A DNA stretch of 40,748 nt from Paracoccaceae bacterium (GTDB lineage: Bacteria > Pseudomonadota > Alphaproteobacteria > Rhodobacterales > Rhodobacteraceae). A program made the position numbers and the translations under genes. The notes below the pieces were generated by a model, which was not told where the DNA came from, made no database searches, and saw only the letters and a program-made list of their open reading frames with translations. Location of the stretch: the NCBI GenBank assembly GCA_021741465.1, contig JAIOXV010000009.1, positions 1-40,748 on the forward strand, read 5' to 3'. This document shows positions 8,098 through 14,615 of this stretch, piece by piece. Every line of letters starts with the position of its first letter. The stretch's first letter is position 1.

Positions 8098-9354
8098 ATG
8101 GCGAAAGAATCCATCGATACGCTTGTTGTCGGGGCTGGGCAGGCCGGTGTGGCTGTTAGCGAACATCTGGGCAAGTTGGGCGTGCCGTATCTTGTGCTGG
8201 AACGCGCCCGAATTGCTGAGCGTTGGCGTTCAGAGCGCTGGGATTCCCTGGTTGCCAATGGGCCGGCCTGGCACGACCGTTTTCCGGGGCTGGAGTTTGA
8301 AGGTTTCGGCCCGGACGACTTTGTGCCGAAAGAGAAAGTGGCTGACTATTTCGTGGCCTATGCCAATGAAATCAACGCGCCGATCCGCACCGGGGTTGAG
8401 GTGCGCCGCGTGGAGCGCCGTACGGGAAAGCCGGGGTTCATCGTTGAAACCTCGGACGGCACGATCGAGGCAAATCGCATCGTTTCGGCCACTGGCGCAT
8501 TTCAGCGGCCGGTCATTCCCGGCATCGCGCCAAAGGACGACGGGCTATATCAAATTCACTCGGCGGCTTATCACAACCCCGAACAACTGCCCGAAGGGGC
8601 GGTTCTGGTTGTTGGCGGCGGATCGTCTGGCGTGCAGATTGCCGACGAGTTGAACCGCGCCGGGCGCAAGGTTTATCTTTCGGTTGGCGCCCATGACCGC
8701 CCGCCACGCGCCTATCGCGACCGCGATTTTGTCTGGTGGCTTGGGGTGTTGGGCCTGTGGGATATCGAAGCGATGGCGCCGGGCACCGAACATGTTACAA
8801 TTGCTGTCAGTGGCGCCTATGGTGGCAAGACCATCGATTTTCGCGAATTGGCGCAGCAGGGTATCACGCTTTTGGGCCTGACCGACGCCTTTCAAGACGG
8901 CAAGGCAAGTTTCCGGAGCGATCTGGTCGAGAATATCCGCAAGGGAGATGAAAACTATCTGTCGCTGCTGGATGCGGCTGACGCTTATATCGCCCGCAAT
9001 GGTCTGGACCTGCCCGAAGAACCGCTTGCGCGGCGCACGTTGCCCGATCCGGACTGTATGAAAAACCCGATCAAGGAGCTTGATCTTGCCAAAGCCGGCA
9101 TCACCTCGATCATCTGGGCCACGGGCTATGCCACCGATTTCAGCTGGCTTCCGGCAACCGCGCTGGATGATAAGGGCAAACCCCGCCATCAGCGCGGCGT
9201 TTCTTCTGAACCGGGGGTGTATTTTATCGGCTTGCCCTGGCTTTCCCGCCGGGGGTCGACCTTTATCTGGGGTGTTTGGCATGATGCCAAACATATTGCC
9301 GACCATATCGCGACCCAGCGCAAATACACCGCCTATCACGAAGGAAAGACTTGA
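8098..9354 (+). CDS. Flavin-containing monooxygenase (YUCCA/CzcO-like FAD-dependent oxidoreductase)
   Basis: Protein of 418 aa with two dinucleotide-binding folds: VVGAGQAGVAVSEHLG at residues 10-25 for FAD and VVGGGSSGVQIADEL near residue 172 for NADPH. Between them lies YQIHSAAYHNP, which resembles the His-x-x-x-Tyr motif of YUCCA-type flavin monooxygenases. The C-terminal ATGYATDFSWL fits the second FAD-contact motif of the group. It likely inserts oxygen into an N-, S- or ketone-containing substrate. AAGGA lies seven bases before the ATG. RidA, DUF1028 and LysR genes follow on the same strand, suggesting a catabolic operon. Annotations of this family as potassium transport (CzcO) proteins are probably misleading here. 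The substrate is unknown. Confidence 0.88.
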   Translation: MAKESIDTLVVGAGQAGVAVSEHLGKLGVPYLVLERARIAERWRSERWDSLVANGPAWHDRFPGLEFEGFGPDDFVPKEKVADYFVAYANEINAPIRTGVEVRRVERRTGKPGFIVETSDGTIEANRIVSATGAFQRPVIPGIAPKDDGLYQIHSAAYHNPEQLPEGAVLVVGGGSSGVQIADELNRAGRKVYLSVGAHDRPPRAYRDRDFVWWLGVLGLWDIEAMAPGTEHVTIAVSGAYGGKTIDFRELAQQGITLLGLTDAFQDGKASFRSDLVENIRKGDENYLSLLDAADAYIARNGLDLPEEPLARRTLPDPDCMKNPIKELDLAKAGITSIIWATGYATDFSWLPATALDDKGKPRHQRGVSSEPGVYFIGLPWLSRRGSTFIWGVWHDAKHIADHIATQRKYTAYHEGKT

Positions 9355-9486
9355 TCTGTGACAGCCTGGCCTGCCTGTGTTCAGGATCACACCCAGATCA
9401 GGGCATATTCCAGGTTTGAAACTTACCGCGCCCATACCCGCCGGCCCAAGCCCGGACACGAATGAACCAACTCAAGGATCAGCACC

Positions 9487-9903
9487 ATGGCGCATACGCG
9501 CATTCGCAAGTTCAACACCAAGGAAACCTACCCAGAGCAGAACCTGGACAATGACCTGTGCCAGGCCGTTGTAACCCGCGGGGGGCGCACGATTTATCTG
9601 CGCGGCCAGTGCCCGCAGAACTTGGATGATGCCAAGGATATCGGCAGCCATGATCCGGTGGAACAGACCCACAAGGTCATGCAGAACATCCGCCAATTGA
9701 TCGAGGAGTGTGGCGGCACCATGGAGCATCTGGTCAAGGTAGTGGTCTATATCACTGACGTGCGCCACCGTGAGGCGGTCTACCGAACCATGGGCGAATA
9801 TCTGAAAGGCGTGCATCCAGTCTCGACCGGGCTTGTGGTCAGCGCTTTGGCACGGCCGAATTGGCTGGTGGAAATCGACGGCACCGCTGTAATTCCGGAT
9901 TGA
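9487..9903 (+). CDS. RidA/YjgF/Rid family protein
   Basis: Protein of 138 aa of the trimeric RidA fold, which hydrolyses reactive imines/enamines made by amino-acid and amine oxidising enzymes. A conserved arginine used by active RidA proteins is seen in ALARPNWLVEIDG (about residue 123), so deaminase activity is possible. The family core GGTMEHLVKVVVYITDV is intact. It starts 132 bases after the monooxygenase gene with AAGGA upstream, and ends 3 bases before the DUF1028 gene. Its place beside two flavoenzymes suggests it clears an imine intermediate of the same pathway, which is inference. Confidence 0.92.
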   Translation: MAHTRIRKFNTKETYPEQNLDNDLCQAVVTRGGRTIYLRGQCPQNLDDAKDIGSHDPVEQTHKVMQNIRQLIEECGGTMEHLVKVVVYITDVRHREAVYRTMGEYLKGVHPVSTGLVVSALARPNWLVEIDGTAVIPD

Positions 9904-9906
9904 GCC

Positions 9907-10581
9907 ATGACCTTTTCTCTTGTCGCGCGGTGCGCAGAAACCGGCATGTTCGGTTTGGCCATATCTTCGTCATCCCCGGCCGTTGCGGCGCGTTGTTCCC
10001 ATGCGCGCGCCGGTGTGGGGGCAGTGGCTTCGCAAAACATCACAGACCCATCGCTTGGGCCGCTGATGCTTGATCTCATGCAAGGTGGCATGGCGGCACC
10101 AGACGCCATCGCAGCCCTGCGTGGCCGTGCGCGGTTCCCTGAATATCGCCAAGTTCTGGCGGTAGATGCCGCTGGCCGCACCGCGATCCATTCTGGGCCG
10201 AACGCCCTTGGCATTTGGGCCGAAGCTGTTGGGCCCAATGTGGCTTCGGGGGGCAATCTTCTGGCAAATTCAAACGTGCCTCAGGCGATTGTTGATGGGT
10301 TTGTTGGATCGGTCGGTCATTTGGGCGACAGGTTGATTGCCGCGATGCGGGCGGGGCTTGGCGCCGGGGGCGAGGCGGGGCCGGTACATTCCGCCGGTCT
10401 GCGAATTGTGGACAAGGTTGAATGGCCCATCGTCGATCTGCGCTGCGATTGGACGGAGGACTGCCCGATAGAGGCACTTGCCCAGCTGTGGGATATCTAC
10501 AAGCCGCAAATGGACGCCTATGTTCAGCGCGCCCTCGATCCCCGCGCGGCACCTTCATATGGCGTGCCCGGAGATGAATGA
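9907..10581 (+). CDS. DUF1028 (Ntn-hydrolase-like) protein
   Basis: Protein of 224 aa matching the DUF1028 family: N-terminal MTFSLVARCAETGMFGLAISS, the ARAGVGAVASQNITDPSLGP block and the VASGGNLLANSNVPQAIV segment. The family is regarded as having an N-terminal-nucleophile hydrolase fold, but its reaction is unknown to me. There is no signal peptide, so it is expected in the cytoplasm. It begins 3 bases after RidA, so the two are almost certainly co-transcribed. RidA-DUF1028 neighbours recur in amine/amide catabolic loci, which suggests amide-bond or cyclic-amide hydrolysis as a possible role; this is inference. Confidence 0.88.
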   Translation: MTFSLVARCAETGMFGLAISSSSPAVAARCSHARAGVGAVASQNITDPSLGPLMLDLMQGGMAAPDAIAALRGRARFPEYRQVLAVDAAGRTAIHSGPNALGIWAEAVGPNVASGGNLLANSNVPQAIVDGFVGSVGHLGDRLIAAMRAGLGAGGEAGPVHSAGLRIVDKVEWPIVDLRCDWTEDCPIEALAQLWDIYKPQMDAYVQRALDPRAAPSYGVPGDE

Positions 10582-10645
10582 AACGCCGGCCAAGGGCCGC
10601 GCGGCACAAGATATGCAAAGCACGCCCCGTCAGGCAGGATAAAGC

Positions 10646-11599
10646 ATGGCCCTACGCTTTACCCTTCGGCAGCTTGAATACCTTGTCGCCGTGGGCGACA
10701 ACGGCAGTATCATTTTGGCGGCGGAAAAGCTGCATGTCTCTTCCCCTTCCATTTCTGCGGCCATTGGTCAGTTGGAAGACCAGCTTGGCCTGCAGCTTTT
10801 TGTGCGCCACCACGCCAAGGGGCTTTCTCCAACACAGGCAGGCCGGCAGATTGTGCTGCAGGCGCGCCGGATATTGGCCGAAGGCGAAGCGCTGAACCGC
10901 CTTTCTGGTGAGATTTCCGGCAGCGTGCGGGGCGATCTGGCCTTGGGCTGCCTTTTGACCTTTGCGCAGATCGTTGTCCCGCGGCTACGGCGCGGCTTTG
11001 AAACCCGCCACCCGATGGTGACTGTCAGTCAGGCCGAGTTGAACCAGCAAGAGATTATCGACAGCATCCGCAGTGGCGCCCTTGATGTGGCTCTGACCTA
11101 TGATCTGGAGATTCCCGAAGATCTGGTCTTTGTGCCGCTGGTAAAGCTCCCGCCCTATGTGCTGCTGCCGGAGGATCACCCGCTATCGCGCCTGCAGGCA
11201 ATTTCGGTTGACCAGCTTCAGCAGTATCCGATGATCCTTCTCGATCTTCCGCTGAGCAGTGACTACTTCCTGTCCATCTTTCGCGCCGCGGGGCTGAAGC
11301 CCAATATTGCCGAACGCACCAGCGATCTTGCCGTGGTTCGCAGCCTTGTCGCCAATGGGTATGGCTATGCCATCGCGAATGTGCGGCCTTTGAGTGAACG
11401 CTCTCCTGATGGGCAAAAGCTGTGTTTCGTGCCCTTGGCCGGGGCAGTGCGGCCGATGATCATGGGGCTTGTCATGGCCAAGGGCATAGAAAACCTGCTG
11501 ACCATTCGGGCATTTGTTGGCCATTGTCAGGAAAAGATCACAGCTGAAAACGTGCTGGGCATTGACCCGCACCAAGTAGCGGCAACACCGCAGTTCTGA
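10646..11599 (+). CDS. LysR-family transcriptional regulator
   Basis: Regulator of 317 aa with the LysR winged helix-turn-helix at the N-terminus (LRQLEYLVAVGDNGSIILAAEKLHVSSPSIS, then QLEDQLGLQLFVRH) and a periplasmic-binding-protein-like effector domain from about residue 90. It follows the FMO-RidA-DUF1028 genes by 64 bases and faces the TMADH-like gene, whose 3' end is 29 bases away. It is the obvious candidate controller of this locus. A perfect inverted repeat upstream of the TMADH-like gene (13809-13833) may be its operator. The effector is unknown, probably the amine or an intermediate. Confidence 0.94.
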   Translation: MALRFTLRQLEYLVAVGDNGSIILAAEKLHVSSPSISAAIGQLEDQLGLQLFVRHHAKGLSPTQAGRQIVLQARRILAEGEALNRLSGEISGSVRGDLALGCLLTFAQIVVPRLRRGFETRHPMVTVSQAELNQQEIIDSIRSGALDVALTYDLEIPEDLVFVPLVKLPPYVLLPEDHPLSRLQAISVDQLQQYPMILLDLPLSSDYFLSIFRAAGLKPNIAERTSDLAVVRSLVANGYGYAIANVRPLSERSPDGQKLCFVPLAGAVRPMIMGLVMAKGIENLLTIRAFVGHCQEKITAENVLGIDPHQVAATPQF

Positions 11600-11628
11600 A
11601 CTGGCTTTGCCGCTCATGCCGCGTGGCT

Positions 11629-13710
11629 TCAATCCTCGGCCAATTCGGTTATCTCCCGCCGGAAAGACAGGGTATCACCCCAATCCTCGGCCCAAACGCC
11701 CGTGTCCAACTCGCGGGCATAGCGGTGCCCGGCATAGGTGGCCCAAGCTATCGGCCCCGGTGCTGCAGCATCACCGATCAGTTGAACGGATCGGATGCCA
11801 GCATCTGCCCAATCGGCCGAACGCGCGCGCAAGCCTTGAAAAAGCGCGTCCTCCGATTGGCGCGAAGCCACCATCACCACCGCGTCACAGCCGATCTGAC
11901 CGCGCGCATCGGTATAGCTGCAGCAGGTCTCAACCCCATCGGGCAACAGGCCTGAAACCCCGGTGTTCAGCACGATCTTCACGCCAGCCTGCGCCAACCT
12001 GCGATGGATGGCCCCCTGTTCCAACGTGTTGCGCGTCCAGTCCGACACAAAGGCGGCAGGCGTGACCAGTGTCACCTCTGCCCCGGCCTGCGCGCACAAC
12101 TCGGCCAGAACGCCGCCCATATAATAATGGTCATCATCGAAGACCACGACCTTGCCCTTCGGCACGCGGCCCTGCATCAGGTCATCGGGGGTAAAGATCG
12201 GCAACGCCCCGCGCTGCGGGATGGCCACCACATGCTGGCGCGCCACGCCGTCGGCCCGCCAACTGCTGCCAGTGGCCACGCAGATGTTCTGAAACCCGAA
12301 CGCCAGCACCTCGTCCACCGACAAGGCTGATCCGGGATACATCTCAACATTCGGGCGCTGGCCAATCTGATACAATCGATAGTCCATCACCCGGCCCCAT
12401 GCCGACAAGCCCGGCAACAGCCTTTCGCGCGCCACCCGCCCGCCAAAGCTGTCGCGCGCCTCGGCGACGGCCACATCATAGCCGCGCAAAGACAGCGCGC
12501 GCGCCGCCTCCAGCCCTGCAGGACCAGAGCCGATCACGAGGACCGTGTCGCTTGCGCCCTTGGTGGCAATCTTCTCTGGGTGCCAGCCCTTGCGCCATTC
12601 CTCCATGAAGGTTGGGTTCTGGGTGCAGCGGCTGATCGACATGGTCATGTCGCCAGTGACGCAGATATTGCAGCCGATACATTCGCGAATATCTTCGATC
12701 CGGCCTTCTTCGATCTTTTTTGGCAAGAAAGGATCGGCAATCGATGGGCGCGCACAGCCGATGAAATCAAGCACACCTTGGCGGATCATGCGAGCCATGA
12801 CATCGGGCGAGGTGAAGCGACCGACGCCGACCACGGGCTTTGACGAAAGCTCTCTTATTCCCGAAACCAGCACCTCTTGCGCCGCCTCTTGCTTGAACCG
12901 CGATGGGCCAGAGCATTCATCCCAAGACCCCTGCGCCAGATCCCACAGATCGGGCAGATCGGCATTCATCTCGACAAACTCGCGCACTTCCGCATTGGAA
13001 AAGCCCAGATTGCCGATCTGTTCGTCCAAGGAAACCCGCATGGTCAGCGCCATGCTGTCCCCCACCGCGTCGCGCATATCCGCCACCACCTCGCGGGCAA
13101 AGCGCGACCGGTTTTCCAAGGACCCGCCATATTCGTCGCTGCGTTGATTGGTGGCACGGCTCAGGAAATGCTGGAAGATGCCAAAGCCATGCGCGCCATA
13201 AAGGCAGATCAGGTCGAACTCGGCCGTTTTGCAGCGCCGGGCGGCGTTCACAAACCATCGGCGCAGATTGCGGATGTCGGATTTATCCATCGCGCGGGCC
13301 TGGACCGGATCATTGGTAAAGGTGCGGATGGGCAAAGCGGTTGGTGCAAGTGGCACTTCCTTGGTGTAGAAATTCGGCCCATTGATGCCGGAATAGGCCA
13401 ACTGAATGCCCGCAAGGGCCCCGTGGGTTTTCATCGCCCGCGCCATTTTGCGCAGGCCGGGAATGTCCTTGTCTTCCCACAACCGCAATTCGATGAAGGG
13501 CGTGATTTCCGAGGTCTGGTGCATCTCGGTCTGCTCGGTGAAAATCACACCCCAACCGCCCTCGGCTTTGATCCCGCGCATTGCGGCGGCGGCAGCCGGG
13601 TCACCGTAGCCCCCGCCATTGCAATGCGGCACCTGATAGAACCGGTTCTTGGCGGTCAGCGGGCCAATCGGCATTGGTTCGAAAAGAATGTCATATCGGG
13701 GATCGCGCAA
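11629..13710 (-). CDS. TMADH-like FMN / 4Fe-4S / ADP-binding amine dehydrogenase or demethylase, substrate unknown
   Basis: Protein of 693 aa similar throughout to trimethylamine/dimethylamine dehydrogenase. Domains: FMN TIM barrel (1-340), a cysteine cluster CIGCNIC then C after eleven residues (about 344-362), and two Rossmann-like domains from about 395 (TVLVIGSGPAGLEAARAL). The track start (TTG 13767) is replaced by the TTG at 13710 because AAGGAG lies seven bases before it; this puts the cysteine of YQVPHCNGGG at residue 30, the position that holds covalent FMN in TMADH. Tyr171/His174 of LYGAHG match catalytic residues. Compared with the TMADH sequence as I recall it, positions 60, 74 and 105 are Gln, Glu and Ala instead of Tyr, Ser and Trp, so the trimethylamine bowl is not kept. 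N-methylproline demethylase and histamine dehydrogenase are related alternatives. Confidence 0.88.
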   Translation of the reverse strand: MRDPRYDILFEPMPIGPLTAKNRFYQVPHCNGGGYGDPAAAAAMRGIKAEGGWGVIFTEQTEMHQTSEITPFIELRLWEDKDIPGLRKMARAMKTHGALAGIQLAYSGINGPNFYTKEVPLAPTALPIRTFTNDPVQARAMDKSDIRNLRRWFVNAARRCKTAEFDLICLYGAHGFGIFQHFLSRATNQRSDEYGGSLENRSRFAREVVADMRDAVGDSMALTMRVSLDEQIGNLGFSNAEVREFVEMNADLPDLWDLAQGSWDECSGPSRFKQEAAQEVLVSGIRELSSKPVVGVGRFTSPDVMARMIRQGVLDFIGCARPSIADPFLPKKIEEGRIEDIRECIGCNICVTGDMTMSISRCTQNPTFMEEWRKGWHPEKIATKGASDTVLVIGSGPAGLEAARALSLRGYDVAVAEARDSFGGRVARERLLPGLSAWGRVMDYRLYQIGQRPNVEMYPGSALSVDEVLAFGFQNICVATGSSWRADGVARQHVVAIPQRGALPIFTPDDLMQGRVPKGKVVVFDDDHYYMGGVLAELCAQAGAEVTLVTPAAFVSDWTRNTLEQGAIHRRLAQAGVKIVLNTGVSGLLPDGVETCCSYTDARGQIGCDAVVMVASRQSEDALFQGLRARSADWADAGIRSVQLIGDAAAPGPIAWATYAGHRYARELDTGVWAEDWGDTLSFRREITELAED

Positions 13711-13808
13711 AATCGGGCTCCTTGATCTTGTCTTACCAAAGGCTTTCAGGCGCGCCCGGTCAAGCAAAGCCGAACAGCAAGATCACCGAAACAACTTGAA
13801 TCTGAACT

Positions 13809-13833
13809 GTTGATGAGGTGACGGGTCATCAAC
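13809..13833. promoter_or_regulatory. Perfect 8-bp inverted repeat upstream of the TMADH-like gene; candidate LysR operator
   Basis: GTTGATGA and TCATCAAC are separated by nine bases, about 111 bases (centre) before the TTG start of the TMADH-like gene. Size, symmetry and distance suit a LysR-type recognition site. It also lies 15-40 bases after the stop of the TIGR02186 gene on the same strand, so a weak hairpin role is the alternative, but there is no T-run and the loop is long. Confidence 0.5.
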
Positions 13834-13847
13834 TGGGCCAGTGTCGA

Positions 13848-14615
13848 TCACCGCCGCAGCAGACGGAAACCAGCCGATGCAGCCCAGCCCGCCAAGGCCG
13901 CAAGGGCAAGCGAGATCAGGCCGTAAAGAAAGGGCTGCTCATGGGCCATGACATACAAGGCCCGCTCCAGCCCCGCTTTACGCACGTCAATCAACCGCTC
14001 TTCTTGGTCCAGCACGCGCCCATCGCGGGTGATGAACATCCGCACCTTATAGGCGCCCTCAATCAGATTGGCAGGCAGCGCGATATCGGTGCGAAAAAGC
14101 GTTTCTTGTACCAGTTGCACGCGCCCCTGCATCAGCCTGTAGCTTTGATCGTCACTGCGGATGCGCCGAAGGGCTGCGGTGAATTCCTCGGCCCCTTGCG
14201 CCTCAGATGCGGCACCAATGGCACGAATTGCATGGTCTAGCGTGATCTTGAAGCGCAGATCTTCAGTTCGGGTCAAGATCTTGTCAATCGGGCCACTGGT
14301 CGCAACGGCATAGAACGAAGGGGCTGCGTCCACGGTGATGGCTGATGCATTTACCCAGATCCCGGCCACATATTCTTTGCGGCGGATCACCAGCGGCGTC
14401 GATGGGCCTTCGACTGTGATGATAACCTCAAGCGGTGCGCCTTTTGGGGCAGGGGAATCGCGTTTCACCGCGCCATAGATCAGAATTTCCGAACCATCGA
14501 AATTCGCCGTAATCGCCACGCGGTTTTGCGAAAGCCCTGAAACGATCTCTTCGCCCGCAGCACACGCCGCGCTGGGCAAAAACAGCATCGCAATAAGTGC
14601 GGCGCGCTTCATCAT
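13848..14615 (-). CDS. TIGR02186 family membrane-anchored periplasmic protein
   Basis: Protein of 255 aa with an N-terminal signal peptide (MMKRAALIAMLFLPSAACA), a periplasmic domain that starts EEIVSGLSQNRVAITANFDGSEILIYGAVKRD, and one C-terminal membrane segment (GLISLALAALAGWAASAGF) ending in RLLRR. This arrangement and the N-terminal motif match the alphaproteobacterial TIGR02186 family. It overlaps the TauE/SafE-type exporter gene by four bases (14612-14615); the pairing is a known feature of the family and suggests an accessory subunit. Its function is not known. Confidence 0.88.
   Translation of the reverse strand: MMKRAALIAMLFLPSAACAAGEEIVSGLSQNRVAITANFDGSEILIYGAVKRDSPAPKGAPLEVIITVEGPSTPLVIRRKEYVAGIWVNASAITVDAAPSFYAVATSGPIDKILTRTEDLRFKITLDHAIRAIGAASEAQGAEEFTAALRRIRSDDQSYRLMQGRVQLVQETLFRTDIALPANLIEGAYKVRMFITRDGRVLDQEERLIDVRKAGLERALYVMAHEQPFLYGLISLALAALAGWAASAGFRLLRR

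Follow-up and report, generated by a model that had tools for sequence, protein, structure and literature searches.

The window analysed here, a 40,748-nt stretch of contig JAIOXV010000009.1 (assembly GCA_021741465.1, Paracoccaceae bacterium), carries a five-gene locus that, judged from its sequence, very likely constitutes a Rhodobacteraceae-type hin cluster through which histamine would serve as a carbon and nitrogen source and be broken down to aspartate. The first-pass annotation of this DNA described an uncharacterised amine or amide oxidation locus; its core corresponds to the published hinFLH genes of Pseudomonas histamine catabolism, and we consider that the locus very probably encodes this known pathway in a version that differs in its first step. 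For genes entered in databases as "NAD(P)/FAD-dependent oxidoreductase, RidA, DUF1028, ArgE", this would supply a concrete substrate and pathway. The features of the locus are as follows.

8098-9354, plus strand: hinF-type FAD monooxygenase (flavin monooxygenase), proposed imidazoleacetate 4-monooxygenase, EC 1.14.13.5
9487-9903, plus strand: hinL-type RidA-family protein (PF01042; 57% identical to HinL of P. aeruginosa PA7), proposed C=N hydrolase acting on N-formimino-aspartate or a ring intermediate
9907-10581, plus strand: hinH-type DUF1028 protein (PF06267), proposed Ntn-type amidohydrolase whose nucleophile would be Thr2
10646-11599, plus strand: hinK-type LysR regulator, best PDB matches 6M5F and 3FZV
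11629-13710, minus strand: histamine-dehydrogenase-type FMN/4Fe-4S/ADP enzyme, 693 aa from the TTG at 13710
11629-13767, minus strand: longest open reading frame of the same gene, from the TTG at 13767

All five genes were found where they had been annotated previously, with the 29-base gap (11600-11628) between the convergent 3′ ends of the LysR and dehydrogenase genes. The annotated interval nevertheless ran to position 13833, to which the dehydrogenase reading frame cannot extend, as its longest version starts at the TTG at 13767. The most likely start is the TTG at 13710, which is preceded by AAGGAG and yields a protein of the same length as the Rhizobium enzyme.

In Pseudomonas aeruginosa PA7 (L162), the monooxygenase, RidA and DUF1028 genes have close homologues that form a row, in the same order as in the window and followed by an M20 deacylase gene. 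Identity to the window proteins was 76% over 411 aa for HinF and 56% for HinH. In translation, the open reading frames flanking the PA7 genes resembled cardiolipin synthase on one side and formed a CdhR-, CaiX- and carnitine-gene-like series on the other; we take this stretch to match the PAO1 layout from PA5394 (cls) to PA5389 (cdhR), the four genes presumably being PA5393-PA5390. These four are given as hinF, hinL, hinH and hinG in a review, which also states that histamine raises the expression of histamine-metabolism genes 240- to 2200-fold (PMC8231116). We drew the roles of the hin genes from this review and from a table that lists HinF as EC 1.14.13.5, HinG as EC 3.5.1.8, HinH as an amidase, HinL as an enamine deaminase and HinI as an aspartate ammonia-lyase (PMC6467879).

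In the window's genome, HinF of PA7 had a single strong match, the monooxygenase at 8098-9354, whose domain is Pyr_redox_3. The nearest NCBIfam model was TIGR04046 (MSMEG_0569 flavoprotein), and membership in that family was ruled out because the score of 362 bits falls under the curated cut-off of 498. The monooxygenase had been suggested earlier to form an N-oxide or imine; HinF, to which it is 76% identical, has been assigned the function of imidazoleacetate 4-monooxygenase, a ring oxygenation (PMC6467879).

In the window's RidA-family protein, the catalytic arginine of Rid proteins (Arg105/107) is replaced by Ser113, and the 43 aligned sequences have Ser (35/43) or Cys (8/43) at this position. 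According to a published criterion, Rid proteins that lack this arginine are not RidA-type imine hydrolases (PMC4433059), and HinL should therefore not be described as clearing the imine of the dehydrogenase. Imine clearance after the dehydrogenase or the flavin monooxygenase, as put forward in the first-pass annotation, thus runs against the residues found in 43 of 43 sequences. The suggestion that DUF1028 cuts an amide or ring fared better, as it agrees with the listing of HinH as an amidase. The DUF1028 protein scored 211 bits against PF06267, and its Thr2 was invariant in 59 of 59 sequences and likewise in alignment A1. Its structure model, of moderate quality (pLDDT 68), matched best the DUF1028 structure 2IMH and then, among the best matches, which alone were used, HslV and the asparaginase EcAIII, these matches to Ntn hydrolases beyond 2IMH being weak (E ≥ 0.04). 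The conserved threonine and the weak Ntn resemblance of the model suit an amidohydrolase, and we propose that HinH may be a Thr-nucleophile enzyme of the Ntn type. A literature search on DUF1028 retrieved nothing. The biochemistry of HinL and HinH is, in our opinion, the most interesting part of the locus, as the function of DUF1028 and of the arginine-less RidA becomes testable as the opening of an imidazolone ring, in marine and soil settings as well as on plasmids.

The regulator points to the same pathway. The sequence of 6M5F, one of the two best PDB matches of the window's LysR protein, shares 99.7% identity with a PA7 LysR protein whose gene has neighbours for an aldehyde dehydrogenase, a class III aminotransferase and an amino-acid permease, an arrangement known as hinK-hinDAC (PMC8231116); 6M5F was tied to hinK by this combination of sequence and synteny. 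HinK of PA7 was in turn the best match of the window's LysR protein in that genome (181 bits, against 91 for the next protein), and in Pseudomonas HinK is documented to sense imidazole-4-acetate. With 34.6% identity, the LysR protein would be a HinK-like regulator rather than a proven functional equivalent.

Whereas the first-pass annotation called the minus-strand enzyme TMADH-like, this label proved too loose. The best solved relative is the Rhizobium histamine dehydrogenase (PDB 6DE6; 78% identity, 1251 bits), followed at a distance by the Nocardioides enzyme (805 bits) and by trimethylamine dehydrogenase (1DJN), which shares the family and cofactor plan but scored far lower, at 510 bits. 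The Rhizobium enzyme has been characterised and is histamine selective (PMC10180351). Using the pocket and tunnel residues listed for it and its numbering (PMC10180351), we found 15 of 17 positions identical in the window enzyme, the exceptions being T262S and D265E. The kept residues of the substrate pocket are Gln60, Ile69, Phe72, Glu74, Asn110, Tyr171, Phe176, Trp263 and Asp354. From the published catalytic triad of Tyr171, His174 and Asp265 (PMC10180351), Tyr171 and His174 are retained and Asp265 is replaced by Glu. Of 29 family homologues, 25 carry Asp at position 265, three carry Glu and one carries Asn; the other residues checked were nearly invariant. The cysteine for covalent FMN attachment is present as Cys49 (Cys30 of the Rhizobium enzyme), as are the Fe-S cysteines in the motif CIGCN. 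We propose that the protein is an enzyme of the histamine dehydrogenase type, which would convert histamine to imidazole acetaldehyde. Histamine dehydrogenase has a use in food tests. The locus would provide the enzyme with a genomic home, as we found no account of its physiological or gene context in the accessible literature; likewise, the titles and abstract openings of the open literature on the enzyme yielded no link to the hin genes at the locus level.

Next to the gene identities, most active-site residues and synteny observed in this genome, we analysed conservation in 58 loci sampled from the family, each with DUF1028 as the anchor and at most 20 kb long. RidA was near DUF1028 in 57 of these loci, HinF and LysR in 46 each and an M20 gene in 34; the dehydrogenase accompanied it in 28 loci, the ATPase of a polyamine-type ABC transporter in 26 and an aldehyde dehydrogenase of the HinD type in 11. 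In 56/58 loci, RidA and DUF1028 shared a strand, with RidA immediately 5′. The dehydrogenase was encoded on the strand of hinH in 27 of 28 loci, usually after LysR, so that its opposite orientation in the window is unusual; being convergent, the window gene is not on the hinFLH transcript, which we counted against the histamine reading. A dehydrogenase with at least 65% identity was present in 44 of 249 family genomes (one counted on a strong fragment), all of which carried hinH, and the two genes were at most 10 kb apart in 36 of the 44. At an identity of at least 73%, 33 of 36 such genomes had a copy within 10 kb of DUF1028. Across the 249 genomes, 44 carried both genes, 0 the dehydrogenase only, 41 hinH only and 164 neither (Fisher p about 2 × 10−25), a p-value that is inflated by the relatedness of the species, the genomes not being independent, while the positional result is untouched by it. 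Collectively, the association of the five genes is far beyond chance. The conservation search suggested along with the earlier annotation thus revealed that the genes are neighbours across the family, rather than rarely so; its idea of one regulated amine pathway stood as far as a conserved amine-oxidation neighbourhood with its own regulator is concerned, but several of its enzyme roles and its novelty did not.

Individual relatives illustrate both the completeness and the variation of the cluster. Leisingera methylohalidivorans (L145) has the order ALDH-HinF-RidA-DUF1028-ALDH-LysR-dehydrogenase-dodecin-argE-ABC transporter, in which the gene for the flavin-binding dodecin (14350-14556) lies between the histamine dehydrogenase gene and argE. 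Haematobacter massiliensis (L143) has HinF-RidA-DUF1028-ALDH-FAD oxidoreductase, and an aldehyde dehydrogenase from the clusters of relatives is 67% identical to HinD. A genome of the same genus as the window's (G179) kept HinF-L-H-LysR, and its best dehydrogenase, on another contig, is 65% identical to that of the window, which was also counted against the histamine reading. A TGA was counted within this match (C2:295340-297424), and this nearest dehydrogenase may be a different or damaged copy. Genes for Rieske oxygenases were located nearby in about 10 of the 58 family loci; in some (e.g. L041, L052, L060, L070) such genes, sometimes two, lie between HinF and RidA.

Several steps of the pathway are not encoded in the window, which belongs to a genome that is 82% complete and in 189 contigs. 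The HinG (M20) homologue, absent from the window, is on contig C184 and is 49% identical to HinG of PA7 and 68% to the gene in the cluster of a relative. A clear HinD homologue was found neither in the window nor elsewhere in the incomplete genome (best full-length identity, 46%), which contains many aldehyde dehydrogenases. An aminotransferase of the HinC type was absent from the window, where histamine dehydrogenase is present instead, and from the 58 family loci, and neither a HinA-type permease nor a pathway ABC transporter was seen within the window. The distant HinG, the lack of a clear HinD and the lack of a transporter in the window likewise weigh against the histamine reading. A Rieske gene with an aldehyde dehydrogenase on contig C76 was dropped as a pathway part, as its surroundings look like a different locus, and an aspartate ammonia-lyase-like gene on contig C35 (40%) was not counted, as it may encode a fumarase.

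In the pathway that we propose, histamine dehydrogenase would convert histamine to imidazole acetaldehyde and ammonia, pass the electrons to an electron carrier and so replace the transaminase HinC, which in Pseudomonas is a histamine:pyruvate aminotransferase. An aldehyde dehydrogenase encoded outside the window would yield imidazole-4-acetate, the ring of which HinF would oxygenate to give imidazolone acetate. Ring opening and loss of the imino nitrogen would then fall to HinH and HinL, leading by way of N-formimino-aspartate to N-formyl-aspartate, from which HinG, the M20 deacylase on another contig, would release aspartate and formate, while the HinK-like regulator would sense imidazole-4-acetate and turn the genes on. 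By analogy, the dehydrogenase, aldehyde dehydrogenase and HinF steps would follow from characterised relatives. The roles of HinF, HinG, HinH, HinL and HinK come from the Pseudomonas literature, and we infer both their transfer to this genome and the order and sharing of the HinH and HinL steps.

Like the hin system of Pseudomonas putida U and P. aeruginosa (hinDAC, hinFLHG, hinK, hinI), the window has HinF, HinL and HinH homologues in order and a HinK-like regulator, and the loci of its relatives add the M20 (HinG) and aldehyde dehydrogenase (HinD) genes. It differs in its first enzyme, in the regulator lying inside the cluster and in the absence of HinG and HinD from the window; moreover, an ABC transporter is found in its relatives where Pseudomonas has the permease HinA. 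A putative histamine pathway of Brevibacterium similarly combines HinADFGHIL homologues with a first enzyme other than HinC; there, in contrast to the window, a copper amine oxidase (histamine oxidase) was proposed (PMC6467879).

It is unlikely, in our estimate, that the cluster instead degrades imidazole-4-acetate, or an imidazole giving rise to it, while the dehydrogenase acts on another amine, agmatine or 1,3-diaminopropane for example. Such an account would accommodate D265E, the finding of HinF-L-H-G behind other front ends and the 41 of 85 hinH-carrying family genomes with no close histamine dehydrogenase; moreover, these two amines are oxidised by the Rhizobium enzyme at 10-13% of the rate measured with histamine (PMC10180351). 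Nevertheless, all nine substrate-pocket residues from Gln60 to Asp354 are kept, and a dehydrogenase of at least 65% identity never occurs without hinH, which it mostly adjoins.

We give still less credence to the version of the first-pass annotation, a new amine or amide pathway with RidA clearing an imine from the dehydrogenase or monooxygenase. RidA was indeed the most conserved neighbour, and clustering of Rid genes with those for amine oxidases is on record (PMC4433059); however, the catalytic arginine is missing, RidA accompanies HinF-DUF1028-M20 even in genomes without such a dehydrogenase nearby, and the gene set agrees with the published pathway. Finally, the convergent orientation within the window and the separate contig of the nearest homologue in G179 might suggest that the dehydrogenase is a mere neighbour with an independent function. 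We regard this as barely credible in view of the 27 of 28 family loci with the gene on the hinH strand, usually after LysR, and of the 36 of 44 copies within 10 kb of hinH.

Outside the family, the HinF-RidA-DUF1028-M20 core was found in Pseudomonas, Burkholderia, Enterobacteriaceae and on a Pseudonocardia plasmid, with varying first enzymes, either an aminotransferase or a GMC oxidoreductase with an aldehyde dehydrogenase and a cytosine permease. On the Pseudonocardia plasmid, the gene after HinF-L-H-G is annotated as aspartate ammonia-lyase, as would suit a pathway ending in aspartate. The full HinF-HinL-HinH-HinG set with the GMC oxidoreductase, aldehyde dehydrogenase and cytosine permease occurs on Klebsiella variicola plasmid pJNQH579-1 (L141, 1146-9822), where an imidazole alcohol perhaps feeds imidazole acetate. 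In the DUF1028 tree (FastTree), the dehydrogenase-linked loci fell within one clade of 57 (support 0.96), and loci with an HpaB-like monooxygenase in the place of HinF were scattered, which suggests repeated replacement of HinF. The loci with this HpaB-like flavin monooxygenase close to RidA-DUF1028 are L084, L086, L088, L089, L134, L139 and L140.

A more specific proposal assigns formimino deiminase activity to the RidA protein without the imine arginine and takes DUF1028 to be a new imidazolone hydrolase with a Thr nucleophile, both within a widespread alphaproteobacterial histamine pathway started by the dehydrogenase. We advance it tentatively and lean somewhat against it; if true, RidA, DUF1028 and M20 would together form a portable module for ring opening, used with varied oxygenases (HinF, HpaB-like or none nearby). 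RidA-DUF1028-argE triads with no HinF nearby were seen on K. pneumoniae plasmid pK66-45-2 (L255, 8562-10848) and E. coli plasmid pRHB31-C22_2 (L256, 7562-9848), beside genes for an ABC transporter, a quinone oxidoreductase, a GST and a 3-dehydroquinate dehydratase. The occurrence of triads without HinF on Klebsiella plasmids implies that the triad alone is not histamine specific. In the plasmid set, DUF1028 in any version was matched in 105 Klebsiella records. In three plasmid matches (H48, H56, H79), the DUF1028 genes were annotated as fimbrial, pilus or pilin proteins, apparently a misannotation.
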